Assembly: GCA_003134505.1 (NCBI GenBank) | Contig: PLBK01000015.1 | Location: forward strand, 71,276 to 135,275 | Length of the DNA: 64,000 bases | Direction: 5' to 3' | Source of the DNA: Actinomycetota bacterium | Lineage (GTDB): Bacteria; Actinomycetota; Thermoleophilia; Gaiellales; Gaiellaceae | In this document: positions 16,314 to 60,651 of the stretch, in pieces | How positions within the stretch are numbered: position 1 is the first letter of the stretch | Layout: each line of letters begins with the position of its first letter | Notes under the pieces: model-generated | What the model was told of the DNA's origin: nothing | Seen by the model: only the letters and a program-made list of their open reading frames with translations | The model's database searches: none | Translations under genes and position numbers: made by a program

Positions 16314-16356
16314 GGATCCCCCTTTTCCTTGCGGTTTGGTCTACTCGTCGCGAAGG

Positions 16357-34703: not shown

Positions 34704-34723
34704 CCGTTTCCACGTGGAAACGG
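34704..34723. promoter_or_regulatory. Perfect 20-bp palindrome, parS-like
   Basis: The half-site CCGTTTCCAC is followed by its exact complement GTGGAAACGG. The centre TTCCACGTGGAA shares the CACGTG core and one half of the Bacillus parS pattern TGTTNCACGTGAAACA. It lies between the kinase and htrA, about 19 kb from parB. It could be parS or an operator for htrA. Confidence 0.45.
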
Positions 34724-45267: not shown

Positions 45268-45704
45268 CCCGCGAGCGAGGCGTCGACGGTGATCTCGACG
45301 TTGCCCTCGAGCGCCTTCGAGACCGGGCAGTTGACCTTCGCACCGTCGGCTGCCTCCTTGAACGCCGCGGCGTCGACGCCCGGGACGTCGCCGCTCACGC
45401 GCAGCGCGATCTTGGTCAGGCGGAAGCCGGCGTCGGTCTTGTCGAACTCCGCGGTCGCGTGGGTCTCGAGGTGAGCCGCTGGGCTCCCGGCCTGCGCAAG
45501 CCCGTGTGAGAGCGCCATCGAGAAGCAGCCGGCGAGCGCGGCGGCGATCAGCTCCTCCGGGCTCGACCCGGCGGAGGCGTCCTCGGCGCGGGCACGCCAG
45601 CTCAGCGGGACCCCGCTGACGGCGCCGCTCCCGACCGAGACCGTTCCGGACCCGCTCATCAGGTCACCGTCCCACGTCGCCGATGCAGTGTGCTCAGCCG
45701 CCAT
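45264..45704 (-). CDS. osmC: OsmC/Ohr-family peroxiredoxin-like protein
   Basis: The 146-residue product has 'GSGTVSVGSGAVSGVPLSWRAR', catalytic Cys in 'EELIAAALAGCFSMALSHGLA' and second Cys in 'GAKVNCPVSKALEGNVEITVDA'. OsmC reduces organic hydroperoxides. I chose ATG 45704 because AAGGAGG ends 6 bp upstream of it; the ATG two codons earlier has no spacing. In the ancestral arrangement the gene overlapped the end of rarA and was presumably cotranscribed with it. The integrated element now separates them. Confidence 0.92.
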   Translation of the reverse strand: MAAEHTASATWDGDLMSGSGTVSVGSGAVSGVPLSWRARAEDASAGSSPEELIAAALAGCFSMALSHGLAQAGSPAAHLETHATAEFDKTDAGFRLTKIALRVSGDVPGVDAAAFKEAADGAKVNCPVSKALEGNVEITVDASLAG

Positions 45705-45774
45705 GCTCATCCTCCTTGTCGTTGCTCGCCTGCGGCCGATAGTACTTGCGGCCCTTGAGGTGGTAGGGCACTTC
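45694..45774 (-). pseudogene. rarA: Displaced original 3' end of rarA
   Basis: On the minus strand, in the rarA frame, this segment reads E-VPYHLKGRKYYRPQASN-DKEDEHGG then TGA at 45694-45696. Joined to the rarA body at the GA/TC crossover it makes a continuous C-terminus '...DELKSGTEVPYHLKGRKYYRP...'. GRKYYRP is the conserved RarA tail motif. The fragment is cut off from its gene by the 13.7-kb element. Confidence 0.85.
45766..45774. other. attL half-site of the integrated element
   Basis: GGGCACT (chromosomal arm, 45766-45772) followed by the presumed crossover dinucleotide TC (45773-45774). It is mirrored by TC-AGTGCCC at 59432-59440. The two ends share only CTTC. Confidence 0.8.
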
Positions 45775-45852
45775 GGTATTGACTTCCCGCGCCATCTACG
45801 CGTACATGAGGCGTAGGGCGGATGGGCCGCCCCACGCCGCAAGGGAGGATAG

Positions 45853-47376: not shown

Positions 47377-47582
47377 GCGACGGACACCTCAGCCCGCTCC
47401 AGCGATGCTGGGTGCTGCTGGACGACCTGGAGGATCGCGTGCGCCGTGAAGGGCTTCAGGTGACCGCCGATGACCTGGCCCTGGCGAAGCGGTTCCTGAT
47501 GGAGCACGACGAGGAAGCCGATGCTGGGCGCTTTCCAGGCGGTGCGATGGGTGCCTCCTGGGGCGAGGGCAGCGTAGAGTAA
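47373..47582 (+). CDS. Small acidic protein coupled to the recombinase
   Basis: The 69-residue product (MSDGHLSPLQRCWVLLDDLE...) overlaps the recombinase stop by ATGA. It is predicted helical with no family recognised. Recombination directionality factors are small and often near the integrase, so that is one possibility, but nothing in the sequence proves it. A strong UUCG hairpin lies just downstream. Confidence 0.6.
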   Translation: MSDGHLSPLQRCWVLLDDLEDRVRREGLQVTADDLALAKRFLMEHDEEADAGRFPGGAMGASWGEGSVE

Positions 47583-47610
47583 AAGCCAGCCTCACTCCTC
47601 CTACAGGCTC

Positions 47611-47634
47611 CGCAGCTCGCTTCGGCGAGCTGCG
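47611..47634 (+). terminator. Hairpin with UUCG tetraloop
   Basis: CGCAGCTCGC and GCGAGCTGCG pair perfectly (10 bp) around TTCG. It lies 29 bp after the stop of the small acidic gene. There is no T-tract, so termination would need help, but as an RNA this is very stable. Confidence 0.6.
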
Positions 47635-47638
47635 TCGT

Positions 47639-47688
47639 GTTGACGGATAACCGGTCAACTCGTGCAGAGCGAATGAGGCGGATAACCG
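47639..47688. promoter_or_regulatory. Repeated operator-like motif upstream of the Cys-rich gene
   Basis: CGGATAACCG occurs at 47644-47653 and again at 47679-47688, 35 bp apart. The first copy lies inside an interrupted palindrome GTTGAC-9 bp-GTCAAC (47639-47659). The second ends 22 bp upstream of the next ATG, a place where a regulator would overlap the promoter. Confidence 0.5.
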
Positions 47689-47710
47689 TCACGGCAGATA
47701 CCCTGCGGGG

Positions 47711-48337
47711 ATGGCCGAGGGGATGCCGGAGCCGAGGTTCTCGACTCCAGAGGAGATCAGGCAGCTCCGAGAGGGGCGACTCCGCCAACAGCAGGCGGCG
47801 CGCGACGAGCAATGGCAGACGAGCGGCTGGGGCGCGGTAGGTGTCCGGTGGTGCAGCCGCTGCACGGAGAGGTTCGACGGCGCGGCTTACATCTTCGATG
47901 ATCCTTTCGGGCGGAGCTACCTCTGCGCGAAGTGCTTCAGGAAGGAGTGCAAGCGGGTGGAGCGGTTGCTCGCGAAGGTAGGAGGAACCGATGACGAGCC
48001 TGATGTCAGGAGGCGGCTTCGGACGCTGCACGACGCGGTGCCGCAGCCGTGCGTCGTCTGCGGGCGGCCGTTCGCCTGGGTCGGCGGTACGGGGCCTCGC
48101 GTGAAGCGGGACGAGAGCGTCGATCCCTTCGCGCTCTACTCGCTACCGCGTCCTCGCATCCATCTCTGCTCCGATGTCTGCCGCCGCGAGTGGCGCAACC
48201 GTAGGAGGCGCGTCCAGCACGCGGGCGGAGTCTGCGAGTGTGGCTGCGGCGAGTCGCTGCGCGGGATGCGCCGAGGCGCGAAGTACTTCTCGGGCGCGTG
48301 CAGGATGCGCGCTCTGAGGGCGCGGCGGGCGGCCTAG
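47711..48337 (+). CDS. Cysteine-rich, predicted multi-zinc-binding protein
   Basis: The 208-residue product has three Cys clusters: 'WCSRC' with 'LCAKC' (about residues 48-75), 'PCVVCGRPF' with 'HLCSDVCRREW' (about 113-161) and 'CECGCGESL' with 'SGACRM' (about 176-200). Spacings suit treble-clef or zinc-ribbon folds. The third resembles short zinc fingers common in phage proteins of actinobacteria. Function is unknown; nucleic-acid binding is plausible. An alternative ATG is at 47723. Confidence 0.65.
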   Translation: MAEGMPEPRFSTPEEIRQLREGRLRQQQAARDEQWQTSGWGAVGVRWCSRCTERFDGAAYIFDDPFGRSYLCAKCFRKECKRVERLLAKVGGTDDEPDVRRRLRTLHDAVPQPCVVCGRPFAWVGGTGPRVKRDESVDPFALYSLPRPRIHLCSDVCRREWRNRRRRVQHAGGVCECGCGESLRGMRRGAKYFSGACRMRALRARRAA

Positions 48338-48663
48338 ATGATCGGCTTGAAGATCGGGATCACGTAGACGACGTTCGAGCCGTCCTCCGCGGGCACCCGC
48401 ACGTCCGCGACGTGGCGGGAGGTCTCGGGTGGCGGTGGTGGGCGGCGCAAGCGCTCATGTCTGATGAGCACCGAGGCGCTTCTCCTACGGATGTCGGCGC
48501 GGGGATTCTGCAGCAGCTCGTGAAGGACTTCCACGGCGACCTCACCGCCATGCCGAGCGAGCGATTCCGCCGCGCGCAACCTCTCCATCGGCGACTTCGA
48601 CTGAAGTTGCAGGCGGAGGACGGCGAGGGCGGCCGACTCAGGGGCGGGCTGGCTCTCGCTCAC
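48334..48663 (-). CDS. Hypothetical protein with a HEAT-like helical repeat
   Basis: The 109-residue product has 'SPMERLRAAESLARHGGEVAVEVLHELLQNPRADIRRRSASVLI', which looks like one or two HEAT-type helix pairs, then a Pro-rich hinge and 'VVYVIPIFKPII'. It overlaps the upstream HTH gene by ATGA, so the two form a leftward pair. Its stop shares a CTAG with the stop of the Cys-rich gene. Function unknown. Confidence 0.55.
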   Translation of the reverse strand: MSESQPAPESAALAVLRLQLQSKSPMERLRAAESLARHGGEVAVEVLHELLQNPRADIRRRSASVLIRHERLRRPPPPPETSRHVADVRVPAEDGSNVVYVIPIFKPII

Positions 48664-49208
48664 CAGAACTGCAACCTGCCGACCGTGGCCAGCTCCACCT
48701 GTGGCTCGGCGTCCGGCTCGCGGCGGCCGGACGGATCGTGCGGAACCGTGGAGCCAAGGCGCGTGCGCTCACGGCGGTGGCCGTTGAGGGCGCGGCGCTC
48801 ATACTCTTCGGGGCTGATCCGGCCAAGGTCACGGTCTCGCATGTTCAAGAACTGGATGAAGCCTCGGTCGCCTGAGAGCAGCTCCTCCGTGACGGGCGGC
48901 CGATGCGACTTCGGCAGCGGGCCGTGCGCGGGCTGGCCAGGCTCGCGGTAGTCGGGATCGCCGCGAGCGACCCTCCGATTTCGCTCGACGGCTCGCTGGG
49001 TACCTTCGGCCTGGGCAAGCCTCGCTGCGTCCTCGGCCTCGCGCGGCTCGACCACCTGCTCGCGGTAGCGCTTGATCTTCGCGGCGGTGACGGAGCGGCT
49101 CAGCCCGAGCTGCGCGCCAACGGCCCTCACCGACTTCAGCCTGAGCCAAAGCCGATAGGCGTCCTCGTCCTCGATGCCCTTCGGCGCGAATTGAGCCTCA
49201 CGATCCAT
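48660..49208 (-). CDS. Helix-turn-helix protein of unknown function
   Basis: The 182-residue product (from ATG 49208, MDREAQFAPKGIEDEDAYR) has a clear HTH-like segment 'SVRAVGAQLGLSRSVTAAKIKRYREQVVE' at about residues 24-52, then a charged region and 'RPPVTEELLSGDRGFIQFLNMRDRDLGRISPEEYERRAL'. The layout resembles phage terminase small subunits or element regulators, but no terminase large subunit is present. The open frame upstream to 49364 is low-complexity and probably non-coding. Confidence 0.6.
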   Translation of the reverse strand: MDREAQFAPKGIEDEDAYRLWLRLKSVRAVGAQLGLSRSVTAAKIKRYREQVVEPREAEDAARLAQAEGTQRAVERNRRVARGDPDYREPGQPAHGPLPKSHRPPVTEELLSGDRGFIQFLNMRDRDLGRISPEEYERRALNGHRRERTRLGSTVPHDPSGRREPDAEPQVELATVGRLQFW

Positions 49209-49633
49209 GCCATGAACATAGCTCCATCGTCCGGCCCGTCCTGGGTCGCCGAGGCGGCCGAGGAGCCGGAGCGTCCCGCCCGCCCACGGCCTCCGTCCCG
49301 GCCCACGTCGGCCACGTAGCGATCGAGCGGCCCCACCGGCCCAGGAGGCGCTTTCCGACCACACGAGCCGCTACAGGGCCTCGGGCCTCAGGAGGCCGCG
49401 GAATCGGCCGCGAGAACTTCCTTTCCCCTGCACACGAGCTATTCCGGGTCGGACATAGCCAAGTAGGGCAGGTAGGGATGCCGATTCAGGCCGCCAACCG
49501 AGCCGATCGAGGCCAGCTGCCCGGCAGTGACGCAGGCGCATCGCGGAGGCGGTCGAGAGGGCGGCGGGCGGAATCCCCTCGCCGGACTAGCTCGCTGATC
49601 TGCCGATTTGCAGATCTTCCGGCTTGACCTTGT

Positions 49634-49760
49634 CGGCCCTCGTCGGCCCTCGCTTTTCGGCCCTTCCCGGCCCTTCGCGGCCCTTTCCCGACCCACTGTT
49701 CATGCGGTGTCGGCCCTTGTCGGCCCTGACCGGCCCTCTCCGGGGCACCTTGTCGGCCCT
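49634..49760. repeat. Nine-copy CGGCCCT array, mostly in 10-bp register
   Basis: Copies start at 49634, 49644, 49658, 49668, 49678, 49711, 49721, 49731 and 49754. Within blocks the spacing is exactly 10 bp, about one helical turn, so all copies of a block face the same side of DNA. A degenerate copy (CGGGGCA) sits in register at 49741. Ten is not a multiple of three, so this is not a coding repeat. Confidence 0.75.
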
Positions 49761-49768
49761 TTCTCGTA

Positions 49769-49787
49769 GGGGCTACGTAGTAGCCCC
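49769..49787. repeat. Perfect inverted repeat next to the array
   Basis: GGGGCTAC (49769-49776) and GTAGCCCC (49780-49787) pair around a 3-base loop, 9 bp past the last array copy. Confidence 0.6.
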
Positions 49788-49847
49788 GAGGGCCGGGAAG
49801 CCGGGCCGGGGCCGTGGCCGTCCTGTCGGTGGAACGAGATAAGCAGC

Positions 49848-49853
49848 TAAACT
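49848..49853 (+). promoter_or_regulatory. Putative -10 for the RepA-like operon
   Basis: TAAACT is followed after 8 bp by the ATG at 49862, fitting the leaderless pattern. Confidence 0.4.
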
Positions 49854-49861
49854 GTATCTCG

Positions 49862-50158
49862 ATGCCGCCTCGCCCGACCACCGCTCCGACGTTCCCGCCC
49901 GAGCTTGGCCCGCTGCCTCCGCCTGGCCCGATCGACGGCCTGCCGCGCCCGGCGAGCTTTCGCGTCGGCTCCGCCTCCACCCACGGCATCGTCTCCACGT
50001 ACTCGCGCGGCTGCCGTTGTCCGCACTGCACCTTCGCATGGCGCGAGTACCGCCGACCGCGAGTTCGAGCTTGGTCGCAACGGAAGGCGGCGGAGCGCAA
50101 GCTGGCCGAGGCCCGCCGTCTCGTCGCCGAGGCTGACCGGCAGGAAAGCGGCCAGTGA
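49862..50158 (+). CDS. Small CxC/CxxC-motif protein upstream of the RepA-like ATPase
   Basis: The 98-residue product has a Pro-rich N-terminus and 'STHGIVSTYSRGCRCPHCTFAWREYRR' (about residues 40-66). The HG-x(5)-Y-x(2)-GCRC-x(2)-C form recurs in small actinophage and element proteins and probably binds zinc. The tail is a basic helix. It overlaps the ATPase start by ATGA-type coupling (stop 50158, next start 50155). Function unknown. Confidence 0.65.
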   Translation: MPPRPTTAPTFPPELGPLPPPGPIDGLPRPASFRVGSASTHGIVSTYSRGCRCPHCTFAWREYRRPRVRAWSQRKAAERKLAEARRLVAEADRQESGQ

Positions 50159-51393
50159 CGTTCACGGCGGAGGAGGTCGAGCAGCAGCACGCGCTCGCGC
50201 ACCAGGCGCGGGCGGAGGCTCGTGCTGGGGCTGCGTTCGCGCAGGCTGCGGCCGAGGATCCGCTGCGGCTTCCCGACTTCTTCCCGCTGCTGCTCGCGGC
50301 CTACGACGATGAGCCGCTGACCGCCGAGGAGCAGGCGCAGCTTGCCGCCTACGAGAACGCGCTTGTCGAGGCAGAACGGCGGCGCGGCCTGCTCGGCCTG
50401 GTTGATCTCGCCGAGGTCATGCGCCACGGCTCGACCGAGCCGGAGATGCTCGTGCCCGACCTGCTCGTCCGGGGCCTGCACCACCTCATCTACGGCGCGA
50501 AGGAATCGGCGAAGACGTGGCTGCTGCTGTGGGCCGCCGCGCAGCTGCTCGTCCGAGGCGAGACCGTGCTGTGGGTGGACAAGGAGATGGGTCGAGGCTC
50601 GCTGGCAGACCGGCTGAAGACGCTCGCCGGGGCCGGGCGAGAGACGGCGATGGCGAACGTGGTCGAGGAGCACCTGGTCTACTGCGAGCACCCGACGATG
50701 GATCGGTCGGCCGAGTCGGTCGCGTTGTGGACGGCGCTGCTCCAGAACCGGCAGCCTGCCCTCGTCATCATCGATGCGCAGACTGAGGTGCTGGCCGACG
50801 CCGGGTTGAACGAGAACATCGGCACCGACGTGGAGCGATGGATGCAGTCGTACCTCACTCCTGCGCGACGGCTCGGCGTGACGACGGTCTTCCTCGATCA
50901 CACGCCGCTCGACTCGTCCGGTCGCGCCGTCTCGTCTCGTCAGAAGGGCGCGGCGGCAAAAGTCGAGCTTGAGGTCGTGAAGACGGCTCACTTCGACCGC
51001 GACACGGTCGGCCTCGTCACCGTCACGCGCAACAAGAACACGGTCTCCGCTCCGATCCCCGAGACGCAGGGCTTCCGCATCGGCGGCACTCCCTTCGTGC
51101 TGGAGCCGTCCGAGCTGCTGCTGCCGGGCGCAGCTGCGACGGCGGCCGGGGCCTACCTGCGAGTGCGGTCGGACATCCGGCTCCTGATCCAGCGCGCCGA
51201 GGAGCCACTCACGAAGTCGCAGATCACCGACTCGATCTCGGGCAAGGACTCGATCAAGCGCCGTGCGCTTGCCGACCTGGCGGGCGACCCGACCGAGCCG
51301 GTCGAGGCTCGTCCAGGCTCTCGCGTCGGATCGCTTCTTTACTCGTGGACGGGCGAGCCAGCGCCCGAGCCGCTGCCGGAGCCGGTCATCTGA
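50155..51393 (+). CDS. RepA-like AAA/RecA-fold ATPase
   Basis: The 412-residue product has a helical N-terminal region, then Walker A 'IYGAKESAKTWLLLWAA' (about residues 114-130), 'VLWVDKEMGRGSLADRL', Walker B 'PALVIIDAQTEV' and 'TTVFLDHTPLDSSGRAVSSRQKGAAAKVE', the KaiC/RepA/DnaB-like hexameric helicase pattern. The C-terminus has a possible winged helix ('LLIQRAEEPLTKSQITDSI'). In plasmids and phages such proteins unwind the origin, so the element may replicate autonomously. A repair or sensing role is the alternative. Start is GTG at 50155. Confidence 0.8.
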   Translation: MTFTAEEVEQQHALAHQARAEARAGAAFAQAAAEDPLRLPDFFPLLLAAYDDEPLTAEEQAQLAAYENALVEAERRRGLLGLVDLAEVMRHGSTEPEMLVPDLLVRGLHHLIYGAKESAKTWLLLWAAAQLLVRGETVLWVDKEMGRGSLADRLKTLAGAGRETAMANVVEEHLVYCEHPTMDRSAESVALWTALLQNRQPALVIIDAQTEVLADAGLNENIGTDVERWMQSYLTPARRLGVTTVFLDHTPLDSSGRAVSSRQKGAAAKVELEVVKTAHFDRDTVGLVTVTRNKNTVSAPIPETQGFRIGGTPFVLEPSELLLPGAAATAAGAYLRVRSDIRLLIQRAEEPLTKSQITDSISGKDSIKRRALADLAGDPTEPVEARPGSRVGSLLYSWTGEPAPEPLPEPVI

Positions 51394-51509
51394 TGCAACC
51401 CGTCATCACGCACGGCCTGGCGCTCCCGGCCTGACGTAGTTCCCGCAAAACGCGACAGACCGGGGACGACTGCCGACGATCACCGGCGTTTCTTATCCAG
51501 GGGTGAGAT

Positions 51510-52154
51510 TTACGCTGCCGGTGCGGGGCTGGGCGCGTCGGCTGCCCCGTTGCTGCGCCGGTAGATGAGGGCGCTCACGATCAGCGTCCAGACGGCGAGC
51601 GCGAAGAGCGTGAGCCAGCCGATCGGCGTGAGCGCCACGACTCCCAACACGATCGAGACCCAGCCAAGCCAGCGCGGCAACAGCCGGGAACGCTCGATCG
51701 CGAGACCGCTTGCCATGTACACCACGCCCAGTCCAGCGAGTAAAGCGCCCGTTGCCAGGTCGCTTTGGATCACGTTCAACGCCTGCGCTGCCCCCGATGT
51801 CAACTTCGCGGGAACGTCAGCAAGCGCGAACAAGCTCCCCGCAGCGAGTGCGCCAGCCGCGGCGAACAGCACGCCTCCGGCAAGGGCGACGGCCGCGAGT
51901 CGTTCGGCCACGGCTGACTGGCGCAGATAGCCGCGCAGCGAGCCGAAAAAGAACAGGCCGAAGAACAAGCTCAGCGTTATCAGGTAGGCCGCAGCAGTCA
52001 GTCTGCCGTTGTGCGAGTGGTAGTAGGAGATCACCTTCAGCCCGCTGGAATCGCTGTTGGGCGTGTTCCCCGACAACACGAAACCGACCGCCAACAACAC
52101 CACGAACAGAACGCCCGCCACCAACGACCCCAGACGACCCCACCGATCCAGCAC
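51510..52154 (-). CDS. Hypothetical six-helix membrane protein
   Basis: The 214-residue product has about six hydrophobic segments ('SLVAGVLFVVLLAVGFVLSG', 'LTAAAYLITLSLFFGLFFFGSL', 'LAAVALAGGVLFAAAGALAAGSLFAL', and others) with short loops and an Ala/Pro-rich tail. Similar proteins are widespread on actinobacterial chromosomes without assigned function, so it may be cargo. It is the only leftward gene between the RepA-like ATPase and the unknown cassette. Confidence 0.7.
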   Translation of the reverse strand: MLDRWGRLGSLVAGVLFVVLLAVGFVLSGNTPNSDSSGLKVISYYHSHNGRLTAAAYLITLSLFFGLFFFGSLRGYLRQSAVAERLAAVALAGGVLFAAAGALAAGSLFALADVPAKLTSGAAQALNVIQSDLATGALLAGLGVVYMASGLAIERSRLLPRWLGWVSIVLGVVALTPIGWLTLFALAVWTLIVSALIYRRSNGAADAPSPAPAA

Positions 52155-52526
52155 GCGCCGACCCTAACACTCCGACTCGAAAGCAACAAGACCAAGCAGA
52201 GGAGTTGCGGAACCCGGTCGAAGGGCCGCCAACTCCACCGGTCTGACACGTCCGTGCAATTGGGGCGTCCGGTTTCGGTTGCCGGCCTTCCACCAGATCG
52301 CGTCATCCGGCCGCCGAAGCAGCAAAGGCCGGTGGCGGTCACCGGCCCTCGCGCGAACGACCGTCGACAGGATCGCCGAGCGCATCACCGTCCAGTGGCT
52401 GCTCGGCGCTGCGGAGGGAGGACTCAGGCGCGGGAACCGGCTGAAGCCACTCGTGACGGCCGTGTCATCTCGCGTTCCGGCTTTATGGCCCGCGCCCTAC
52501 AGCGACTCTACCGCGACGAGTCACTA
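52155..52526. other. Non-coding spacer, nothing recognised
   Basis: This stretch lies between the start of the leftward membrane gene and the 20-bp palindrome. Its ORFs have no plausible start, composition or family similarity. It could hold the membrane gene's promoter, but none stands out. Confidence 0.5.
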
Positions 52527-52546
52527 CAAGTGACCTAGGTCACTTG
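52527..52546. promoter_or_regulatory. Perfect 20-bp palindrome upstream of the five-gene cassette
   Basis: CAAGTGACCT (52527-52536) is followed directly by its complement AGGTCACTTG. It ends 16 bp upstream of the -10-like TACAGT, so a dimer bound there would cover the -35 region and regulate the cassette. Confidence 0.65.
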
Positions 52547-52562
52547 TTCCGGGGCACGGCGG

Positions 52563-52568
52563 TACAGT
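52563..52568 (+). promoter_or_regulatory. Putative -10 of the five-gene cassette
   Basis: TACAGT is followed after 8 bp by the GTG at 52577, again suggesting a leaderless transcript. Confidence 0.45.
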
Positions 52569-52576
52569 CGTGTGAT

Positions 52577-52981
52577 GTGAACAGCTACGAGAAAAGGCTC
52601 TCCGAGATCGACGCCTTGGTCAAGGCCTTGCGCGGTCTCGGCCACACGGACGACGAGATCGTCGTTGAGCTGCGGAAGCATCTCCCCGGCCTCGCTGAGA
52701 AGCCGCCGCGCACCCTCGGCGAGCACATCCAGAAGTCGCTCATGAATCCCGGTACGCCGGTCATCTTCACGGACGGCCCTCGGGGAGACGGCGGCTCCGC
52801 CCACCATGAGATGACCGAGAAGACGCGCGGCGCACGCGCCAAGCGGGACGAGGACGATTCGGCTGAGGCGACGCGCAAGAGCGCACGCCGGGCAGAGGTC
52901 TCGGGCGCGCAGAGCATCATCGCGAAGGCGATCCGCGAGCCGGGCAAGGCGCACGTCCTCGGCGACGGGTACGCCTCATGA
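52577..52981 (+). CDS. Unknown cassette protein 1
   Basis: The 134-residue product starts VNSYEKRLSEIDALVKALRGLGHTDDEIVVELRKHLPG, a helical N-terminus, then a Gly-rich 'FTDGPRGDGGSAHHEM' and a very charged basic/acidic stretch (KTRGARAKRDEDDSAEATRKSARR) ending 'IAKAIREPGKAHVLGDGYAS'. No family recognised. I chose the GTG because TACAGT sits 8 bp upstream; the open frame extends to 52544, inside the palindrome. It is coupled by ATGA to the next gene. Confidence 0.65.
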   Translation: MNSYEKRLSEIDALVKALRGLGHTDDEIVVELRKHLPGLAEKPPRTLGEHIQKSLMNPGTPVIFTDGPRGDGGSAHHEMTEKTRGARAKRDEDDSAEATRKSARRAEVSGAQSIIAKAIREPGKAHVLGDGYAS

Positions 52982-53100
52982 CCACGGCATCACGCGGTCT
53001 CGTCCGCCTGACCAAGTTCTGGAACGGCCAGCACCTGACCTGCTTCGTCCACGAGGCTGAGGTCGCCGAGCGTCTAGCTCGCGGCTGGAGGCGGGCATGA
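52978..53100 (+). CDS. Unknown cassette protein 2 (40 residues)
   Basis: This tiny ORF encodes MTTASRGLVRLTKFWNGQHL then TCFVHEAEVAERLARGWRRA. It overlaps both neighbours by 4 bp (ATGA), which argues that it is translated. Positively charged ends and a 'WNGQHLTCFVHEAEVAERL' middle suggest a small folded or peptide-binding protein. No family recognised. Confidence 0.55.
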   Translation: MTTASRGLVRLTKFWNGQHLTCFVHEAEVAERLARGWRRA

Positions 53101-53702
53101 GCACGGCCCTGCGCGAGCGGGACGCTGTCGCGGTCGGATTTGACCACTCGAAGAACCTCTCGGAGGGCATGGAGTACGTCGAGGAGAACGGCATCACGAG
53201 CTGGCGCGAGATCGAAGGCTGGACTCCGCCCGAGCCGGAAGACGAGATCGAGCTGGACGTGATCCAGAACGACTGGCAGGAGCCGGGGCGGGACGAGCTG
53301 CTGGTCGCTGACCCGTACGCTGATCTTCCCGCCGAGAGCCGGCGACTTCATGAACGACAGCACGAGCTGACCACGCTCGCCGAGACCGTCTCCCTCTCGA
53401 AGCGGGCGCAGGCTGAGCTGGCCTCGATCCCCGTGAAGATCGCTGCGTTCCACAAGCAGGACGACGAGGCCCGCGCCGAGCGCGAGCGTCTGGGCGCCGA
53501 GCTGGGCGAGGCGCGCGAGCGGATCCTCACCGAGACATGGATTCCGGCTGCCGAACGATTCTGCGAGGCGAACGACCAACTGCGTGCGATCGACATCACG
53601 GCGCAGCGCCAGGGCGTCCGCCCGACTGGATCGGAGCGACCCGAGGTGCGCGCTCAGCACGATCACGATTTCCGTCTTCTACTGGCTCGACTCCGAGGCT
53701 GA
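53097..53702 (+). CDS. Unknown cassette protein 3, coiled-coil
   Basis: The 201-residue product has an acidic N-terminal half ('ITSWREIEGWTPPEPEDEIELDVIQNDW') and a long predicted coiled coil from about residue 80 to 145 ('ESRRLHERQHELTTLAETVSLSKRAQAELASIPVKIAAFHKQDDEARAERERLGAELGEARERI' in charged heptads). No family recognised. It may be a structural or adaptor protein. Confidence 0.65.
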   Translation: MSTALRERDAVAVGFDHSKNLSEGMEYVEENGITSWREIEGWTPPEPEDEIELDVIQNDWQEPGRDELLVADPYADLPAESRRLHERQHELTTLAETVSLSKRAQAELASIPVKIAAFHKQDDEARAERERLGAELGEARERILTETWIPAAERFCEANDQLRAIDITAQRQGVRPTGSERPEVRAQHDHDFRLLLARLRG

Positions 53703-53703
53703 C

Positions 53704-53940
53704 ATGGGTCGGCGAGGTTTCCAGATGGCTCCGCTGCACAAGGCGAGGCACTACCCTCGGGCGGTGGTTCGCGGGCGTCCCGCTTCGCCGTCGTTCGCCT
53801 CGGCTGAGCAGGGCATCGTGAAGGCTCGCGCCGAGCAGGGCGCGGACGGCATCCACCTCCACGTGACGGTCAAGCCCTCGCCAGTCAACGTCCACATCCA
53901 CGAGTACGACGGCACCGAGCAGGCGCTGGCTCATGCGTGA
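53704..53940 (+). CDS. Unknown cassette protein 4
   Basis: The 78-residue product (MGRRGFQMAPLHKARHYPRA...) ends with an amphipathic beta-like segment 'GIHLHVTVKPSPVNVHIHEYDGTEQALAHA' rich in His. It starts 2 bp after the previous stop and overlaps the next gene by 8 bp. No family recognised. Confidence 0.55.
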   Translation: MGRRGFQMAPLHKARHYPRAVVRGRPASPSFASAEQGIVKARAEQGADGIHLHVTVKPSPVNVHIHEYDGTEQALAHA

Positions 53941-54202
53941 GCTGACCGACATCCAGAAGAGCGTCCTCGGCGAGCTGTTCAAGGCGACGGGAACCGTCCG
54001 CCTGGACACCTTGGAGATGGACGAGATCTCCGGCGTGGACGCCGGGGCCAACCTCATCGACGGATGGATGGTTCTCAAAGCGCGCCACGCCGAGACGGGC
54101 CGTTTCGTGCCCGAGGGCCATCCCCGCGTGAAGCCAGAGGCCGGGATCTTCCGCCGCGCCACACCGGCTCAGCGCCGGTTCGGCGGCCGGTTCTTCAGCT
54201 GA
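53933..54202 (+). CDS. Unknown cassette protein 5
   Basis: The 89-residue product (MRELTDIQKSVLGELFKATG...) contains 'DEISGVDAGANLIDGWMVLKARH', faintly similar to the 'SLVDxPAN' segment of phage head-region proteins, and a basic tail 'RRATPAQRRFGGRFF'. The similarity is weak and could be chance. It closes the cassette; the opposite-strand nuclease gene begins its 3' end 130 bp further on. Confidence 0.55.
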   Translation: MRELTDIQKSVLGELFKATGTVRLDTLEMDEISGVDAGANLIDGWMVLKARHAETGRFVPEGHPRVKPEAGIFRRATPAQRRFGGRFFS

Positions 54203-54332
54203 CTTCCTTGCTTCCCGCGCCGGGCAGCCGTGCGAGCTCAGCATCGGCAGTTCCGGCAGAGCCTGTTCCGCTCGACGAACGCGCACGTCTTCTGCATCTG
54301 GTTAACCCTGGCGATAAGAGGTCGCTGACCAG

Positions 54333-55550
54333 CTACCTGACGGTCTCGCGATTCCCAGGGAGCACCGTCTTCTCAAAAGCGAGGGCGCGGTTGTACGTGT
54401 TTACACCTACTACCTTCCACTGCTCCTTGGTGGCGAGGTCCTTCCAGTCGCCGTCGTAGAGGATCTCGCGCATCCATAGACCGGCTCCCCGCAAGGGCAC
54501 CGGCACCAGTTTGAGACGGGAGAGATCGTAGTTGTTGTAGTACCACCCTCCGGCGTAGGGGAACAGATCGGCGAACAGATCCAAGGAACGTCGCGCCTGC
54601 TTCGAGGTGCAACATGCCTGCCGCCCGATCTTCTTGAACTCGCCGGCCTCGGCGTCGAGGCAAATCATCGCGCCGAAGCCCAGGAAGTACACCTGGAGGA
54701 CGGACGGCAGGTACCAGGCCTCGTCCTCCGCGATTGTCCGCACCATCTCGCGGAACGATGAGGGTGCCATCCGCGCCCACCGGCTCGACTCGTCCGCGAG
54801 TGCGGCACAGCGAGTCGCCGCGAAGGCGAGTTCGATCCGCTTCCGGTGCTCCAGATAGAAGCACGCCTGCATCTCGGCCGAGGTGCCGTCGAACATCGCT
54901 CGCCTGAACAGCTCACGTGCGCCGCCGCCGCCGCTGATCTCCGTCGCCATCGTCAACGAGATGTCTGGGGCCTCCTGGTAGAGCAGGTACAGGCGAACTG
55001 CCTGCCGCCACGGATCCGGCTCCAGCCAAACCCGCGAAAGGAGGTGCTGTAGCTGCTTCTTCACGAGACGGATGGTTTCGTACCGCTGCCACAGGTTCTT
55101 GTCGTTGATGACCTTGATGAAGGCGTCCTCGACGCGGTAGCAGCTCACCCACGCCTCCAGCACTTCATCTGGCGGCTCCAACTCGATCAACCCAGCCTCG
55201 GCGAAACTCCCCGCGATAGTCCTCGCATCCCGGTCAACGACCGCGATCTCGTGGCCGATCGCCAGCTGCACCTTCCGGGTGTGCAGCGGGTCGCTTGGAT
55301 CAGCGAGGAGCACTCCGCTGTCGATCCCGAGGTGGGTCTTGAGACCGAGCAACTTCCAGAGATCGCTGAAGCCACTCCGCCCGACCTTCGACTCGACGAG
55401 GACTGACTCCTCCTCACCACCGGGGAAGCGGTAGCCCAGAACGTCCAGCTCGAACGCCTGGAAGCTCTCGTCCAGCACGCGCCGGCGGACGTACCAGCCC
55501 GCTGCTTGCAGAGCAGCGGCAACGCTGCGCTCAAGATCTGCCCCGGTCAC
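54333..55550 (-). CDS. Predicted PD-(D/E)xK nuclease, large C-terminal domain of unknown function
   Basis: The N-terminal 60 residues fit a restriction-endonuclease-like core: Glu7 in the first helix, 'FELDVLG' with Asp36 and 'VLVESKVGR' with Glu53-x-Lys55. The remaining 340 residues are mostly helical with many aromatic residues ('AWYLPSVLQVYFLGFGAMICLD', 'GWYYNNYDLSRLKLVPVPLRGAGLWM') and match no family I know. It diverges from the HARE-HTH and methyltransferase genes, suggesting one antiphage or restriction module. Start is GTG or ATG at 55550; no strong ribosome site. Confidence 0.7.
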   Translation of the reverse strand: MTGADLERSVAAALQAAGWYVRRRVLDESFQAFELDVLGYRFPGGEEESVLVESKVGRSGFSDLWKLLGLKTHLGIDSGVLLADPSDPLHTRKVQLAIGHEIAVVDRDARTIAGSFAEAGLIELEPPDEVLEAWVSCYRVEDAFIKVINDKNLWQRYETIRLVKKQLQHLLSRVWLEPDPWRQAVRLYLLYQEAPDISLTMATEISGGGGARELFRRAMFDGTSAEMQACFYLEHRKRIELAFAATRCAALADESSRWARMAPSSFREMVRTIAEDEAWYLPSVLQVYFLGFGAMICLDAEAGEFKKIGRQACCTSKQARRSLDLFADLFPYAGGWYYNNYDLSRLKLVPVPLRGAGLWMREILYDGDWKDLATKEQWKVVGVNTYNRALAFEKTVLPGNRETVR

Positions 55551-55672
55551 GGATCAGGTGTAGCAGAGGGTTGGCTCGGGATCCCTCTTCTGGACACTTG
55601 ATGCGTGGGCGCTGGTTCCCGTAGTACGTGCGTGACCGGCCGCGCGAGGCGGCCCGCACTAGGAGGATCGAG

Positions 55673-55933
55673 ATGGCCACCAAGATCAGGATCACCGGCA
55701 AGCTGGCAGTCGCTCAGGTGCTCGCGGACGGCAAGCCGAAGAAGTCGAAGGTCATCTGCGCCGAGGCGGCAGCCATCGCCACCGAGCTGAAGGGCCGCAC
55801 TCCCGAGGCCACCCTGAGCGCCCTGCTCGCGACCGAGGCGAAGAAGGCGGACGGCCTCGTCGTCCGCACGAAGCCGGGCGAGTTCAAGCTCCGGCCGAAG
55901 CGGAAGGCCCGCGTAAAGGCCGTCGCTCCGTGA
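55673..55933 (+). CDS. HARE-HTH-like small protein
   Basis: The 86-residue product starts MATKIRITGKLAVAQVLADG after AGGAGG six bases upstream. 'LADGKPKKSKVICAEAAAIATELKGRTPEATLSALL' and 'GLVVRTKPGEFKL' resemble the HARE-HTH winged helix (HB1, ASXL, restriction endonuclease), a domain tied to DNA modification systems. TTGATG (55598) and TAGTAC (55622), 18 bp apart, are a possible promoter. It lies between the nuclease and the methyltransferase. Confidence 0.65.
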   Translation: MATKIRITGKLAVAQVLADGKPKKSKVICAEAAAIATELKGRTPEATLSALLATEAKKADGLVVRTKPGEFKLRPKRKARVKAVAP

Positions 55934-56025
55934 CGCGCTGCTGAGTCCGCCACGTCGAGGGCCGCCGATGAGGCGGCCTTCTCGTTGGCCGAGGCTCGGC
56001 CCAGGTGCCCCTCCGGCGCGACTCC

Positions 56026-56031
56026 TAGACT
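56026..56031 (+). promoter_or_regulatory. Putative -10 of methyltransferase gene
   Basis: TAGACTGG followed by the GTG at 56038 (6 bp after TAGACT). The same TAGACTGG-CCG arrangement precedes the gene at 58315. Confidence 0.5.
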
Positions 56032-56037
56032 GGGCCG

Positions 56038-57663
56038 GTGGAGCCGAACCAGCTGTTCTACGGCGACAACCTCGATGTGCTCCAGCGACACGTGAAGGAC
56101 GAGTCCATCGATCTCGTCTACCTCGATCCACCCTTCAAGTCGAACCAGGACTACAACGTGCTGTTCGCCGAGCACGGCACCCGTTCAACCGCGCAGATCA
56201 AGGCTTTCGAGGACACCTGGCGCTGGGACGAGGTGGCGGCGGCGGCCTACGAGGAGACCGTCGAGTCGGGCGGCGAGGTGGCGCAGGCGATGCGCGCCTT
56301 CCGCACGTTGATCGGCACGAGCGACATGCTCGCCTACCTCTCGATGATGGCCCCGCGTCTGGTCGAACTGCGCCGCGTGCTGAAGCCGACAGGATCGCTC
56401 TACCTCCACTGCGATCCGGCAGCGAGCCACTACCTGAAGCTCCTCCTCGACGCGATCTTCGGCCCGACGCGCTTCCGGAACGAGATCATCTGGAAGCGAA
56501 CCTCGTCCCACAGCAGCTCGAAGAAGTACGCCCCGATCCACGACACGATCCTCTACTACGGCAAGAGCGAGTCGGCGTCGTGGAACAGCCCTCGCGTGGA
56601 CTACGAGGAGGAGTATCTCGACCGCTACTACAAGTACGACGACGGAGACGGCCGCCTCCACTGGCGCGCCGACTTGTGCGCCGCTGGCACTCGGAAAGGG
56701 AGCAGTGGCCAGCCCTGGCGTGGCTTCGATCCGGCGGTCAAGGGGATGCACTGGAAGTTCAAGGTGGAGCGCCTTGATGAGCTTGATGCCGAGGGCCGGA
56801 TCTACTGGCCACCAGGAGGGACGGGCTGGCCGCAGTACAAGCGCTACCGCGAGGAGCTGAAGGGCAAGGTCATCCCGGACATCTGGGACGACATCAACCG
56901 GATCAACCCGGTGGGAGGCGAGCGGCTTGGCTACCCGACCCAGAAGCCACAGGCGCTACTGGAGAGGATCATCCAGGCGAGCACGCACGAGGGCGACACC
57001 GTGCTCGATCCCTTCTGCGGCTGTGGCACGACGATTGCCGCCGCGCAGCGCCTCCGACGCCGCTGGATCGGCATCGACATCACTCACCTGGCGATCAACC
57101 TCATCCGGCACCGCCTGCGGGACGCCTACGGGAACGACATCACGAAGGACTACCGCGTAATCGGTGAGCCAGTGACCGCAGACGAAGCGGGTGAGCTGGC
57201 GAAGGAGGATCCGTACCAGTTCCAGTGGTGGGCGCTCGGACTCGTTGGCGCGCGGCCCACGGAGCAGAAGAAGGGAGCGGACAAGGGCATCGACGGGCGC
57301 ATCTACTTCCACGACGAGGGGCCGGGAGGGAAGACGAAGCAGATCATCCTTTCGGTGAAAGCGGGCAGCACAAGCGTCCCTCACCTACGCGACCTTCGAG
57401 GCGTGATGGAGCGCGAGAACGCCGAGATCGGCGTGCTGATCACGATGAAGGGGCCAACGCAGCCGATGCGAACCGAGGCGGCGAGCGCGGGCTACTTCAC
57501 GTCACCCGGCTGGCAGACGAAGCACCCGCGCCTTCAGATCCTCACCGTCGAGGAGCTGCTCGATGGGAAGCAGATCGATTACCCGCACGTCACCGGCGTC
57601 ACCTTCAAGAAGGCCCCGAAGGCGAAGCCGAACGAGTTGGAACCTGAGCCGCTGTTCGAGTAG
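56038..57663 (+). CDS. DNA adenine-type methyltransferase fused to an Mrr-like nuclease domain
   Basis: The 541-residue product has 'YGDNLDVLQRH', motif IV 'LDPPF' (residues 30-33 DPPF) and, later, motif I 'LDPFCGCGTT' (from about residue 323), the beta-class order, preceded by 'YPTQKPQALLERII'. DPPF suggests N6-adenine methylation. The C-terminal part 'GADKGIDGRIYFHDEG...ILSVKAG...HLRDLRGVMERENAEIGVLITM' matches an Mrr-like PD-(D/E)xK domain with Asp419 and Lys441. The residue two before the Lys is Ser, where relatives have Gln or Glu. It probably both modifies and cuts or binds DNA. Confidence 0.85.
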   Translation: MEPNQLFYGDNLDVLQRHVKDESIDLVYLDPPFKSNQDYNVLFAEHGTRSTAQIKAFEDTWRWDEVAAAAYEETVESGGEVAQAMRAFRTLIGTSDMLAYLSMMAPRLVELRRVLKPTGSLYLHCDPAASHYLKLLLDAIFGPTRFRNEIIWKRTSSHSSSKKYAPIHDTILYYGKSESASWNSPRVDYEEEYLDRYYKYDDGDGRLHWRADLCAAGTRKGSSGQPWRGFDPAVKGMHWKFKVERLDELDAEGRIYWPPGGTGWPQYKRYREELKGKVIPDIWDDINRINPVGGERLGYPTQKPQALLERIIQASTHEGDTVLDPFCGCGTTIAAAQRLRRRWIGIDITHLAINLIRHRLRDAYGNDITKDYRVIGEPVTADEAGELAKEDPYQFQWWALGLVGARPTEQKKGADKGIDGRIYFHDEGPGGKTKQIILSVKAGSTSVPHLRDLRGVMERENAEIGVLITMKGPTQPMRTEAASAGYFTSPGWQTKHPRLQILTVEELLDGKQIDYPHVTGVTFKKAPKAKPNELEPEPLFE

Positions 57664-57724
57664 TGCATGGCTGCCATCCGGCCCGCCCAGTACGCTGAAG
57701 GCTCTACCCATGAGGGAGAAGTTC

Positions 57725-57886
57725 GTGACCGATAAGAAGATCGAGAAAATCGCGATGCCCGGCGAGACTTATGGCATCGGCGCTGACATCGTGAACAACG
57801 TCGTGAGCGGTGCCGTAGGTGGTGTCGCAGGCGCGGTCGCCAGTCAGGCGATGGGCAAGATCAAGTCCGGCAAGAAGGAGAAGTAG
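57725..57886 (+). CDS. Small Gly/Ala-rich membrane-active-like protein
   Basis: The 53-residue product (from GTG 57725, with GGGAG 6 bp upstream; ATG 57710 is an alternative) has 'IVNNVVSGAVGGVAGAVASQAM', a small-residue GxxxG-like hydrophobic helix, and a Lys-rich end 'KIKSGKKEK'. This composition recurs in holin-like, bacteriocin-like and toxin peptides, but no family is recognised. Confidence 0.5.
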   Translation: MTDKKIEKIAMPGETYGIGADIVNNVVSGAVGGVAGAVASQAMGKIKSGKKEK

Positions 57887-57896
57887 GGCCGCGAGG

Positions 57897-58274
57897 ATGT
57901 ACCGGATCGACTGGAACCTCTGGGCGAAGCTCGTGATCGGCTGCGAGGCGCTCCGGTCGATGATTTGGGCGCTCCAGAACGCGCATCGGGCCGACTTGTG
58001 GCTCGACCAGCACGTCTTCCAGCCCCTTTTGCAGCGCTTCTTTGGCCCAAAGGTCGTGGCCGACTCCGGCGTCAACGTTTTGACTATCACGCAGGGCGAT
58101 GAAGAGCTGCCCGTCATCGGGGACATGCCGTCCCCAGGCCGCTCGCCTTTCCAGCGCCGGACATACGGCTCCTTGATGCCGCCTCGACGGCCGGGCTTGA
58201 GGCTCGGCGGCTCGGCCACGTCCTCAGTCGTGGTGCATAGCCCGGTCGTCGGAGGGATCGTGCTCGGCAGCTGA
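57897..58274 (+). CDS. Hypothetical protein
   Basis: The 125-residue product starts MYRIDWNLWAKLVIGCEALR with a GCGAGG close to the ATG. It is aromatic and hydrophobic at the N-terminus, then has an 'ITQGDEELPVIGDMPSPGRSPFQRRTYGSL' linker and a C-terminus of small residues (VVVHSPVVGGIVLGS). It starts 11 bp after the previous gene. No family recognised. Confidence 0.5.
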   Translation: MYRIDWNLWAKLVIGCEALRSMIWALQNAHRADLWLDQHVFQPLLQRFFGPKVVADSGVNVLTITQGDEELPVIGDMPSPGRSPFQRRTYGSLMPPRRPGLRLGGSATSSVVVHSPVVGGIVLGS

Positions 58275-58302
58275 TCGCCTTCAGGTGACCGTCCGCCGCA
58301 TC

Positions 58303-58308
58303 TAGACT
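58303..58308 (+). promoter_or_regulatory. Putative -10 with TAGACTGG motif
   Basis: TAGACT followed after 6 bp by the ATG at 58315; matches the site at 56026. Confidence 0.5.
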
Positions 58309-58314
58309 GGCCGC

Positions 58315-58524
58315 ATGACCGATACTGCACCTCCGCCTCCTCCGGCTCCCCGCACGAAGATCCAAGCCGCCCGTCACTCGATCTCGAACGACTACTTCGA
58401 GCCTGCGACGGTGACGGGAACCTCGACTCACCTGGAGCAGCTCTACGTCGAGTTCACGTACGACGGCGACGGCGAGCCAGGGAAGCATCCTTGGCCGTCT
58501 GATGCGATCCGCGTCGAGGAGTAG
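58315..58524 (+). CDS. Small hypothetical protein
   Basis: The 69-residue product starts MTDTAPPPPPAPRTKIQAAR, a Pro run followed by 'HSISNDYFEPATVTG' and an acidic end (FTYDGDGEPGKHPWPSDAIRVEE). It has a good leaderless promoter. No family recognised. Confidence 0.55.
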   Translation: MTDTAPPPPPAPRTKIQAARHSISNDYFEPATVTGTSTHLEQLYVEFTYDGDGEPGKHPWPSDAIRVEE

Positions 58525-58534
58525 CGACCGCCTC

Positions 58535-58774
58535 ATGCTTCCGCCGCTCGATCTGAGTGTCCTCGACAGGATCGTGAAGCTCGCGGAGCGCATCCTGCAC
58601 GACGCCTACGAGATCGCCCTCGTCTCCATGGCGATCGACCGCTACCGCAACAGGGCACGGATCCCGGCTCCGGCCGATCAGCGCTCCGTGACCATCCAGG
58701 TACCAGCCGCACGCGCGGCCGCCGTTATGGGGAAGGCGACCGTGACCTGCGAGCTGACGCTCGTCGGTCGGTAG
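58535..58774 (+). CDS. Small hypothetical protein
   Basis: The 79-residue product (MLPPLDLSVLDRIVKLAERI...) is helical at first, then ends in a beta-like 'VTIQVPAARAAAVMGKATVTCELTLVGR'. An ATG at 58502 would add 11 residues and overlap the preceding gene. GAGGAG lies 13 bp before the chosen ATG. No family recognised. Confidence 0.45.
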   Translation: MLPPLDLSVLDRIVKLAERILHDAYEIALVSMAIDRYRNRARIPAPADQRSVTIQVPAARAAAVMGKATVTCELTLVGR

Positions 58775-58838
58775 CGCGTAGCTCGTCCTTTCGCTCTTAC
58801 GAGCACTCCGAGTTGTAAGCCCAGGGCCTCCGCCGTAG

Positions 58839-58844
58839 TACGCT
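58839..58844 (+). promoter_or_regulatory. Putative -10 of repeat membrane protein
   Basis: TACGCT followed after 7 bp by the GTG at 58852; TAGTAC overlaps it, with TTGTAA (58813) 17 bp further upstream. Confidence 0.4.
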
Positions 58845-58851
58845 CCGGCAC

Positions 58852-59295
58852 GTGTCTCGGCGCACGAAGATCATCATCGGCGTGGTCGGGGCTGTCGTGT
58901 TCATCGTCATCCTCGCGGCCGTTGCGAGTAGCAAGACGAAGACCGTGACCAAGACGAAGACCGTGACCAAGACGCGGATCGTCTACAGGACGAAGACCAG
59001 GATCGTCTACAGGACGAAGTCTGCCGTGACCTACCGCGTCCCAGGCGGCTGCACCTCGGCGATCCGCGATGCCAGGAACGCCTTCCTCATCATCCACGAT
59101 GCGTTCAAGGCAGTGCAGCCTTTCCCGACCTACGTTTACCAGGCGGCGCAGGCGGGTGCCGCGCAGGACTCGGCGAAGATCACGAGCATCGCGAACGAGA
59201 TGAACGCGGCGAACAAGAAGGTGGAATCGGACGCATCAGCGCTCGGTACGGCCGGTCTGCTCTTCAACGGCGATGCCTCGATCTGCAAGAAGTAG
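58852..59295 (+). CDS. Membrane-anchored protein with tandem KT/RIVY repeats
   Basis: The 147-residue product has one N-terminal membrane helix (IIIGVVGAVVFIVILAAVAS), then a basic repeat region: KTKTVT twice (18-bp DNA repeats at 58933-58968) and RIVYRTKT/RIVYRTKS (24-bp repeats at 58975-59022), then a helical domain with a Cys near each end (GGCTS..., ASICKK). The repeat region looks like a charged stalk. It is the last element gene, its stop directly abutting the new rarA stop. Confidence 0.65.
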   Translation: MSRRTKIIIGVVGAVVFIVILAAVASSKTKTVTKTKTVTKTRIVYRTKTRIVYRTKSAVTYRVPGGCTSAIRDARNAFLIIHDAFKAVQPFPTYVYQAAQAGAAQDSAKITSIANEMNAANKKVESDASALGTAGLLFNGDASICKK

Positions 59296-60651
59296 CTACT
59301 CCGGCCTGAGTCCATCGATCTTCTCGGCCGCGCTCGTCTCGCCCGCGTCTCGCAGGAAGTCGGCGACGGCCTTCAGGTTGATCCCCTGCAGGACGTTCGC
59401 GGGCTTGTAGTAGCGACCGCGTGAACTTCCTTCAGTGCCCGACTTCAGCTCGTCGGGGAGGTAGTCCACGTCGAAGCCGGCGGGATCCGAATGCGGGTAG
59501 ACGTACCCCTCGCCATGGCCGAGCTTCCTCGCTCCCGGGTAGTGGGCGTCGCGGAGCGACTTCGGCGGGCGCAGGTTGCCTCGCTCGCGCACGTCGCGCG
59601 TCGCGTCGGAGAGCGCACGCGTGACCGCATTCGACTTGGGCGCGCAGGCGAGGTAGATGGCCGCCTGCGCCAGGTTGAGCTTCGCCTCGGGCAGGCCGAC
59701 GTGCTCCAGCGCCTGGGCCGCCGCGACCGCGACGACCAGCGCCTGCGGGTCGACGTCGCCCACGTCCTCGGAGGCGAGGATGACCATGCGCCGCGCGACG
59801 AACCTCGGGTCCTCGCCGGCCTCCAGCATCGCCGCGAGGTAGTAGACGGCCGCGTCCGGATCGGAGCCGCGCATCGACTTGATGAACGCGGACGTGAAGT
59901 CGTAGTGCATGTCACCGGAGCGGTCATAGACGAGCGGCCGCTTGCGCGCCGCGTCCTCGACGTGCTCCGCGGCCATCGCCGTGCCCTCCGCCTCCGCGGT
60001 CTGGGCCGCGAGCTCGAGGATGTTCAGCGCCGAGCGCCCGTCGCCTCCGGCCCGCCGGGCGATCAACGCGGCGAGCCCGTCCGGAACGGCCACGTCCAGC
60101 ATCGCCGCCCCTCGCCGCACGACGAGCGCCGCCTCCTCGTCGGACAAGGGTTCCAGCTCGTACAGCTGCATTCGTGACATCAGCGCCGAGTTGACCTCGA
60201 AGTACGGGTTCTCGGTGGTCGCGCCGATCAGCGTCACCAGCCCCTCTTCGACCGCGGGCAGCAGCGCGTCCTGCTGGGCTTTGTTGAAGCGGTGGATCTC
60301 GTCGAGGAACAGGATCGTGCGCTGTCCCTGGGCGCCGAGCCGCTCCCGTGCCCGGGCGAGCACGGCCCGTACCTCGGCAACGGTGGCCGACACCGCCGAG
60401 AGCTCCTCGAACGCGGCGCCGGTCTGGGCCGCGACGATCCTCGCGAGCGTCGTCTTGCCGCTCCCTGGCGGGCCGTAGAACACGGACGAGACGACCCGGT
60501 CGCCTTCGATCGCGAGCCTCAGGGCCGAGCGCTCGCCGAGCACGTGCCGCTGGCCGACGAAGTCCTCGAGCGTCGCCGGGCGCGCACGCTGGGCCAGCGG
60601 CGCCGAATCGGGCATCCGCTCGCGCGCCGCGTCGGCGAAGAGGTCGCCCAT
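59296..60651 (-). CDS. rarA: Replication-associated recombination protein A (RarA/MgsA), with element-supplied C-terminus
   Basis: The 451-residue AAA+ ATPase has Walker A 'GPPGSGKTTLARI', Walker B 'TILFLDEIHRFN', sensor 1 'GATTENPYFEVNSALMSR' and the tetramerisation domain 'YDRSGDMHYDFTSAFIKSMRGSDPDAAVYYLA'. RarA acts at stalled forks. Codons from 59430 down to the stop belong to the integrated element and encode 'GSSRGRYYKPANVLQG...', replacing the native tail left at 45694. The new tail even resembles E. coli RarA's 'RYYFPTNRGLEGK', so function is probably kept. It diverges from tryptophan dioxygenase. Confidence 0.95.
   Translation of the reverse strand: MGDLFADAARERMPDSAPLAQRARPATLEDFVGQRHVLGERSALRLAIEGDRVVSSVFYGPPGSGKTTLARIVAAQTGAAFEELSAVSATVAEVRAVLARARERLGAQGQRTILFLDEIHRFNKAQQDALLPAVEEGLVTLIGATTENPYFEVNSALMSRMQLYELEPLSDEEAALVVRRGAAMLDVAVPDGLAALIARRAGGDGRSALNILELAAQTAEAEGTAMAAEHVEDAARKRPLVYDRSGDMHYDFTSAFIKSMRGSDPDAAVYYLAAMLEAGEDPRFVARRMVILASEDVGDVDPQALVVAVAAAQALEHVGLPEAKLNLAQAAIYLACAPKSNAVTRALSDATRDVRERGNLRPPKSLRDAHYPGARKLGHGEGYVYPHSDPAGFDVDYLPDELKSGTEGSSRGRYYKPANVLQGINLKAVADFLRDAGETSAAEKIDGLRPE
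59432..59440. other. attR half-site of the integrated element
   Basis: TC (59432-59433) followed by AGTGCCC (59434-59440), the complement of the GGGCACT arm at attL. Confidence 0.8.

Follow-up and report, generated by a model that had tools for sequence, protein, structure and literature searches.

What purpose might be served by five small, mostly overlapping genes (g1–g5) that follow a perfect palindrome in the genome of an uncultured high-GC bacterium? The window, that is, the whole stretch of 64,000 nucleotides that was analysed, derives from a metagenome-assembled genome (81.7% complete, 2.2% contaminated), which is also the source of the second copy of the cassette described below. The initial annotation had proposed a new system, such as a defence, satellite or toxin module. 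From the sequence, and by analogy with SaPI CpmA/CpmB and P4 Sid, we hold with middling confidence that the cassette lies in a phage-satellite-like element, E1, and that it may be a phage-exploitation operon aimed at the capsid assembly of a helper.

The five small genes placed after the palindrome at the outset are indeed coding, and they are tightly packed: three neighbouring pairs overlap, by 4, 4 and 8 bp, and only g3 and g4 are separated, by a 1-bp gap (Table 1). All five display the codon-position GC pattern of genuine genes, with third-position GC of 78–88%; g1, g3 and g5 have independent support from homologues, and the case for g2 and g4 is made by composition and packing only. A longer version of g4, starting from a GTG at 53584, is possible. 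The AlphaFold2 model of g3 (pLDDT 73) comprises helices at residues 79–97, 102–171 and 182–200; it yielded no significant Foldseek match, and no relatives were found in the PDB. The initial verdict that no product belongs to a recognisable family needs some correction: g5 opens with a motif typical of the N-termini of a family of phage capsid-assembly proteins. For g4, no family match was obtained.

The palindrome is perfect, as first described, and measures 22 bp rather than 20 bp. No other perfect palindrome in the window is as long, and base composition predicts about 0.08 of this length or longer. Lying over the -35 region, it is a plausible candidate operator in E1, and its core, GTGA-N6-TCAC, is reminiscent of CRP/GlxR-type operators. 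The form AGTGAC-N4-GTCACT, with at most one mismatch, had no further occurrence in the 2.8-Mb genome, and the palindrome was found neither in 2.9 million viral contigs nor in the second element, E2. The -10 box reported alongside it was located as a putative TACAGT, 8 bp ahead of the GTG (52577) at which g1 probably starts, so that the transcript would be leaderless. Control by the palindrome does not generalise, as the paralogous cassette of E2 has another promoter and no palindrome. Elsewhere in the window, another perfect palindrome, of 20 bp (CCGTTTCCACGTGGAAACGG), was noted at 34704–34723, inside the start of a serine-protease-like gene.

The surroundings of the cassette were compared with those in relatives, where osmC or an agmatinase gene directly follows rarA, versus 13.7 kb between rarA and osmC in the window. 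The displaced 3' end of the native rarA lies beside osmC and agrees with the C-terminal pattern of the RarA proteins of relatives (LKG/RG-R-x-YY-x-P), and rarA itself runs into an element-encoded tail that, from the point of substitution on, is unlike that of every relative inspected. These two junctions delimit E1. Because the substitute C-terminus restores the GRYYxP motif of relatives, integration appears to replace, not remove, the end of rarA. We regard the mobility of E1 as close to certain.

Table 1. Features of the cassette and of element E1, in coordinates of the window.
Feature	Position	Strand	Details
Perfect 22-bp palindrome	52526..52547		ACAAGTGACCTAGGTCACTTGT; overlaps -35 region
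Putative -10 box	52563..52568	+	TACAGT, read from sequence
g1	52577..52981	+	134 aa, GTG start; GC3 0.87; paralogue L007:10465-10929
g2	52978..53100	+	40 aa; GC3 0.78; 4-bp overlaps; same slot as the 87-aa g2' of E2
g3	53097..53702	+	201 aa; predicted long helical hairpin or coiled coil; paralogue L007:11189-11833
g4	53704..53940	+	78 aa; GC3 0.82; missing from E2
g5	53933..54202	+	89 aa; phage capsid-assembly N-terminal motif DEISGVDAGANLIDGWMVLK plus RHAETGRFVP
Mobile element E1 (~13.7 kb)	about 45757..59445		rarA-osmC insertion relative to relatives
Displaced native rarA 3' end	45694..45759	-	LKGRKYYRPQASNDKEDEHGG, then stop; overlaps osmC start; left attachment site, crossover ~45754-45759
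Element-supplied substitute RarA C-terminus	59296..59448	-	right attachment site; GRYYKP restored, then novel tail
Large serine recombinase (integrase)	45853..47376	+	Pfam Resolvase 1.8e-17, Recombinase 1.9e-13; phrog_95 integrase 2.9e-59
Cysteine-rich zinc-finger-like protein	47711..48337	+	CECGCGESLRGMRRGAKYF; common to E2 (48% over 54 aa, E 4e-10; DNA 84% over 55 bp)
Small HEAT-repeat protein	48334..48663	-	Pfam HEAT_2 4.3e-07
HTH-like protein	48660..49217	-	putative; may be a regulator or an analogue of a small terminase; weak match to phrog_16311, E 0.008
RecA-like ATPase (AAA_25)	50155..51393	+	possible replication protein; Pfam AAA_25 2.1e-13
HARE-HTH-like protein	55628..55933	+	Pfam HARE-HTH 3.8e-05, slightly below curated cut-off; also in E2 (67% over 78 aa)
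End gene	57900..58274	+	RRTYGSLMPPRRPGLRLGGSA C-terminus; also in E2 (DNA 81% over 156 bp)

Searches with PHROGs and Pfam returned no terminase, portal, capsid, tail or lytic genes among the main ORFs of E1 and E2. The early suggestion of a satellite stands insofar as the cassette lies in an integrase-bearing mobile element without the phage structural genes searched for; the satellite role itself we infer. A terminase small subunit was considered as the identity of the minus-strand HTH-like and HEAT-repeat genes and was not supported by profile search. Downstream of the cassette, E1 encodes a 405-aa protein (54333–55550, minus strand) that had no family match and whose N-terminal sequence, FELDVLGYR...VLVESKVG, resembles a PD-(D/E)XK nuclease core when judged by eye; it is near a DNA methyltransferase and is a possible restriction or defence gene. 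The methyltransferase, of the N6/N4 type, is fused to an Mrr/NA-iREase-like C-terminal domain (56038–57663, plus strand). At the right end of E1, a 147-aa protein (58852–59292, plus strand) has a weak match to a superinfection-exclusion family (phrog_4980, E 6e-4).

When the cassette DNA was compared with its own genome, 57 bp of another contig matched at 93%; there, a paralogous operon (loci L002/L007) consists of g1', a slot-2 gene, g3' and g5' and is devoid of both g4 and the palindrome; the core of the cassette is accordingly g1, slot 2, g3 and g5. The 154-aa g1' is 37% identical to g1 over 54 aa (E 2e-5), g3' is 32% identical to g3 (E 2e-13), and g5' matches g5 with E 2e-16, whereas g2', which fills slot 2, has no significant similarity to g2. 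Element E2, which carries this operon, measures roughly 16 kb (L007 about 680–16630) and splits a gene assigned by eye to an NlpC/P60-like family. E1 and E2 are collinear in serine integrase, zinc-finger-like gene, cassette, HARE-HTH-like gene and end gene, with the HARE-HTH-like genes 72% identical in DNA over 275 bp. A further run of small genes in E2 (L007:4765–6840) was considered as another cassette and rejected, as profiles revealed no similarity to g1, g3 or g5; its last gene ends with TRDPAGRFASGGG, presumably a tail type of phage head proteins.

In three viral contigs and in two phages of Arthrobacter, the motif of g5, E-x-SGVD-x2-A-x4-G-[WF]-x3-K, opens a gene that lies 5' of the major capsid gene, either next to it or one gene away. 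A g5/g5' profile led to the 89-kb virus contig IMGVR_UViG_3300005529_000004 (G399; locus L013), in which a 319-aa protein starting with EVSGVDFGANLIDGWMIAK is 49% identical to g5 and the very next gene encodes a major capsid protein of the HK97 type (Pfam Phage_capsid, 1.1e-8; PHROG 1623, E 7.6e-67). In the two further viral contigs the motif opens a gene ahead of the capsid gene, one of the two proteins being a match to PHROG 13547 (E 2e-32). In the sequenced phages Wheelbite (gp23) and Ottawa (gp98), one other gene separates the gene that begins with the motif from that for the major capsid protein. g5' itself matches PHROG 13547 with E 2.4e-4, confined to profile positions 6–51. This PHROG has no name and is listed as of unknown function, with member proteins annotated as hypothetical; position and composition suggest that proteins of this type may be scaffolds. 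Those of Laroyevirus (gp23) and Ottawa (gp98) have the N-terminal motif in common with g5 and g5'. PHROG 13547 proteins differ in having about 270 aa with a helical C-terminal part, versus the 89 aa of g5, which lacks the long C-terminal part, and in being encoded near a major capsid gene, whereas no capsid gene was found in E1 or E2.

The E2 cassette has additional links to G399. A homologue of g2' is present in this virus (42% over 81 aa, E 2e-17), and the viral capsid-assembly gene is directly preceded by an unusual promoter, TTAAGGCGGGAC-N12-TAG, where the virus reads CTTAAGGCGGGAC-N12-TAGTGT. The sequence CTTAAGGCGGGAC-N12-TAG also precedes g1' in E2 and was found in no other of 2.9 million viral contigs, a rarity that is not an independent test, as the pattern was derived from the G399 and E2 sites. 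A slightly looser form has one site in the virus and one in the 2.8-Mb genome. When the upstream regions of G399 and E2 were aligned locally on their own, 10 of 2000 shuffles scored as well. The reverse strand of E2 likewise reads TTAAGG-N18-TAGTGT, giving a divergent pair at the cassette. For TTAAGG-N17-19-TAG, the genome contains four sites, this pair included, versus two when the pattern was reversed as a control; the virus contains one, before its capsid-assembly gene. Within the part of the virus that was read (about 40 of 89 kb), g1 and g3 had no match, which argues that the operon is not simply a cut-out of G399.

As g5 copies a signature with which viral shell-assembly proteins begin, E1 probably parasitises a virus by disturbing the building of its shell. 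Infection by a helper would switch the operon on: E2 would use its copy of the capsid-gene promoter of the virus, and in E1 a repressor would leave the palindrome or an activator would bind there. The g5 protein could compete, through the common motif, with the assembly protein of the helper, and helical g3, together with g1 and g2, might steer or block capsid assembly, with the outcome that the small element would be packaged, or the helper inhibited, at the expense of the latter. More tentatively, E1 and E2 may represent a new satellite family of an uncultured high-GC lineage, with a takeover operon unrelated to those of SaPI, P4 and PLE, in which a tiny g5-type mimic of the N-terminus of an assembly protein acts with a helical partner that reshapes the shell, and in which one element uses a copy of the helper capsid promoter, so that the late programme of the helper would time the takeover. 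If true, this would be an independent solution to capsid piracy, combining mimicry of a short N-terminal assembly motif with a borrowed helper promoter, and would suggest a role for PHROG 13547, whose genes in several phages lie beside the one for the major capsid protein. For the detection of helper-satellite pairs in metagenomes, both motif and promoter provide direct handles.

Among known systems, SaPI1 encodes CpmB; a short RIIK motif is common to CpmB and the scaffold of 80alpha, and the two proteins compete for the capsid protein (PMC5644958). E1 and E2 are like SaPI1 (CpmA-CpmB) and other PICIs in their length of about 14–16 kb, integrase, attachment site and cluster of small genes and, as regards SaPI1, in one small gene with a short motif of a phage assembly protein. 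They differ from them in that no sequence relation was found, the integrase is of the serine type, and the g5 motif is N-terminal and of another kind than RIIK. The defining traits of PICIs are att sites of their own, a lack of structural genes, a length of about 15 kb, a conserved integrase-regulator-replication order, often terS, and phage-induced packaging (PMC6092414). In E1 and E2, we found a serine integrase, no structural or lytic genes among the main ORFs, and sizes of 13.7 and about 16 kb; E1 is inserted at the rarA 3' end, with a displaced tail. The order of int, divergent regulators, xis, and primase or rep with ori was not observed, as no Rpr/Stl repressor, xis or primase was recognised and E1 has only the RecA-like ATPase. 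Given this mixed outcome, we term the elements satellite-like and not PICIs. In the P2/P4 system, the size-determination protein Sid of P4 is an elongated coiled coil of helices (PMC6893505), and g3 is likened to it by its predicted elongated, helical shape. Sid forms an external cage, is without sequence similarity, and belongs to an unrelated helper and organism. Mulch and Flayer, from Streptomyces, are also satellites of actinobacterial phages and, unlike E1 and E2, encode their own encapsidation machinery (PMC10690885).

The main rival explanation, which we consider unlikely, is that E1 and E2 are decayed prophages and the cassette is a functionless remnant of a head-gene region that has lost its portal, capsid and tail genes. 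Like E1 and E2, serine-integrase islands and decayed prophages have an integrase, insertion at a gene end and phage-like small genes, and a decayed-prophage origin would fit both the resemblance of g5 to the N-terminus of a longer phage protein and the presence of a virus-like promoter and a virus-like small gene in the second cassette. However, two independently inserted elements have kept the short operon and its gene order despite divergence of g1, g3 and g5 to about 32–46% identity, every reading frame is intact and has a normal distribution of GC over codon positions, and the part of the virus that was searched contains no match to g1 or g3. Furthermore, the E2 promoter precedes g1', versus the g5-like gene in the virus, and conservation of an operon in two elements, absence of the searched structural genes and a virus-type promoter set E1 and E2 apart from such remnants and islands.

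The motif and promoter evidence would apply equally to an anti-phage defence operon that senses or poisons the capsid assembly of an infecting phage and has no role in packaging, and the methyltransferase with its Mrr-like domain and the unrelated 405-aa protein with a nuclease-like N-terminus also point in this direction. We regard this explanation as improbable, given that PADLOC models matched the cassette to no known defence family and its proteins contain nothing like an effector or toxin domain. It is very improbable, in our judgement, that an integrative element unconnected with phages carries the cassette as cargo, the motif and promoter matches having arisen by chance or old gene exchange. 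In favour of this reading, the upstream alignment of G399 and E2 is, on its own, only moderately significant, and E2 carries many host-like genes; against it, motif, slot-2 homologue and promoter all point to phage genes, the latter two to one virus, and the TTAAGG-N18-TAGTGT arrangement is repeated on the reverse strand of E2.

Several results were counted against the satellite and capsid reading that we prefer. The g5 motif match spans only about 30 residues, the AlphaFold2 prediction for g5 (pLDDT 53) gave no fold, the E1 promoter is not common with the virus, no terS match was obtained, and the known copies are two, in one MAG only. In addition, E2 carries, amid phage-like genes, several apparently secreted, non-phage proteins without family match (L007:9559–10125, 12339–13376 and others), the gene of one of which sits downstream of the reverse TTAAGG promoter.

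Distribution was surveyed at several levels. Neither g5, the zinc-finger-like gene nor the end gene had a relative among 129 genomes of the order, in which the g5 profile recovered its own two copies and otherwise noise; for g3, the 103 genomes of the family and a sample of 399 from the class likewise contained none. Viral and genome collections scanned with g3 and the end gene, by single protein and by profile, yielded nothing, as did the genome collection with the g5 profile, and no significant match to g3 or g5 was returned when sequenced phages were searched by tblastn. One relative (G019) has, on a contig (C46) in which neither cassette nor integrase was found, a HARE-HTH homologue (L085:10269–10532) beside HTH regulators. 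Short DNA matches to the cassette occur on contigs C4, C44, C50 and C53, the first three of them within the charged coiled-coil stretch of g3.
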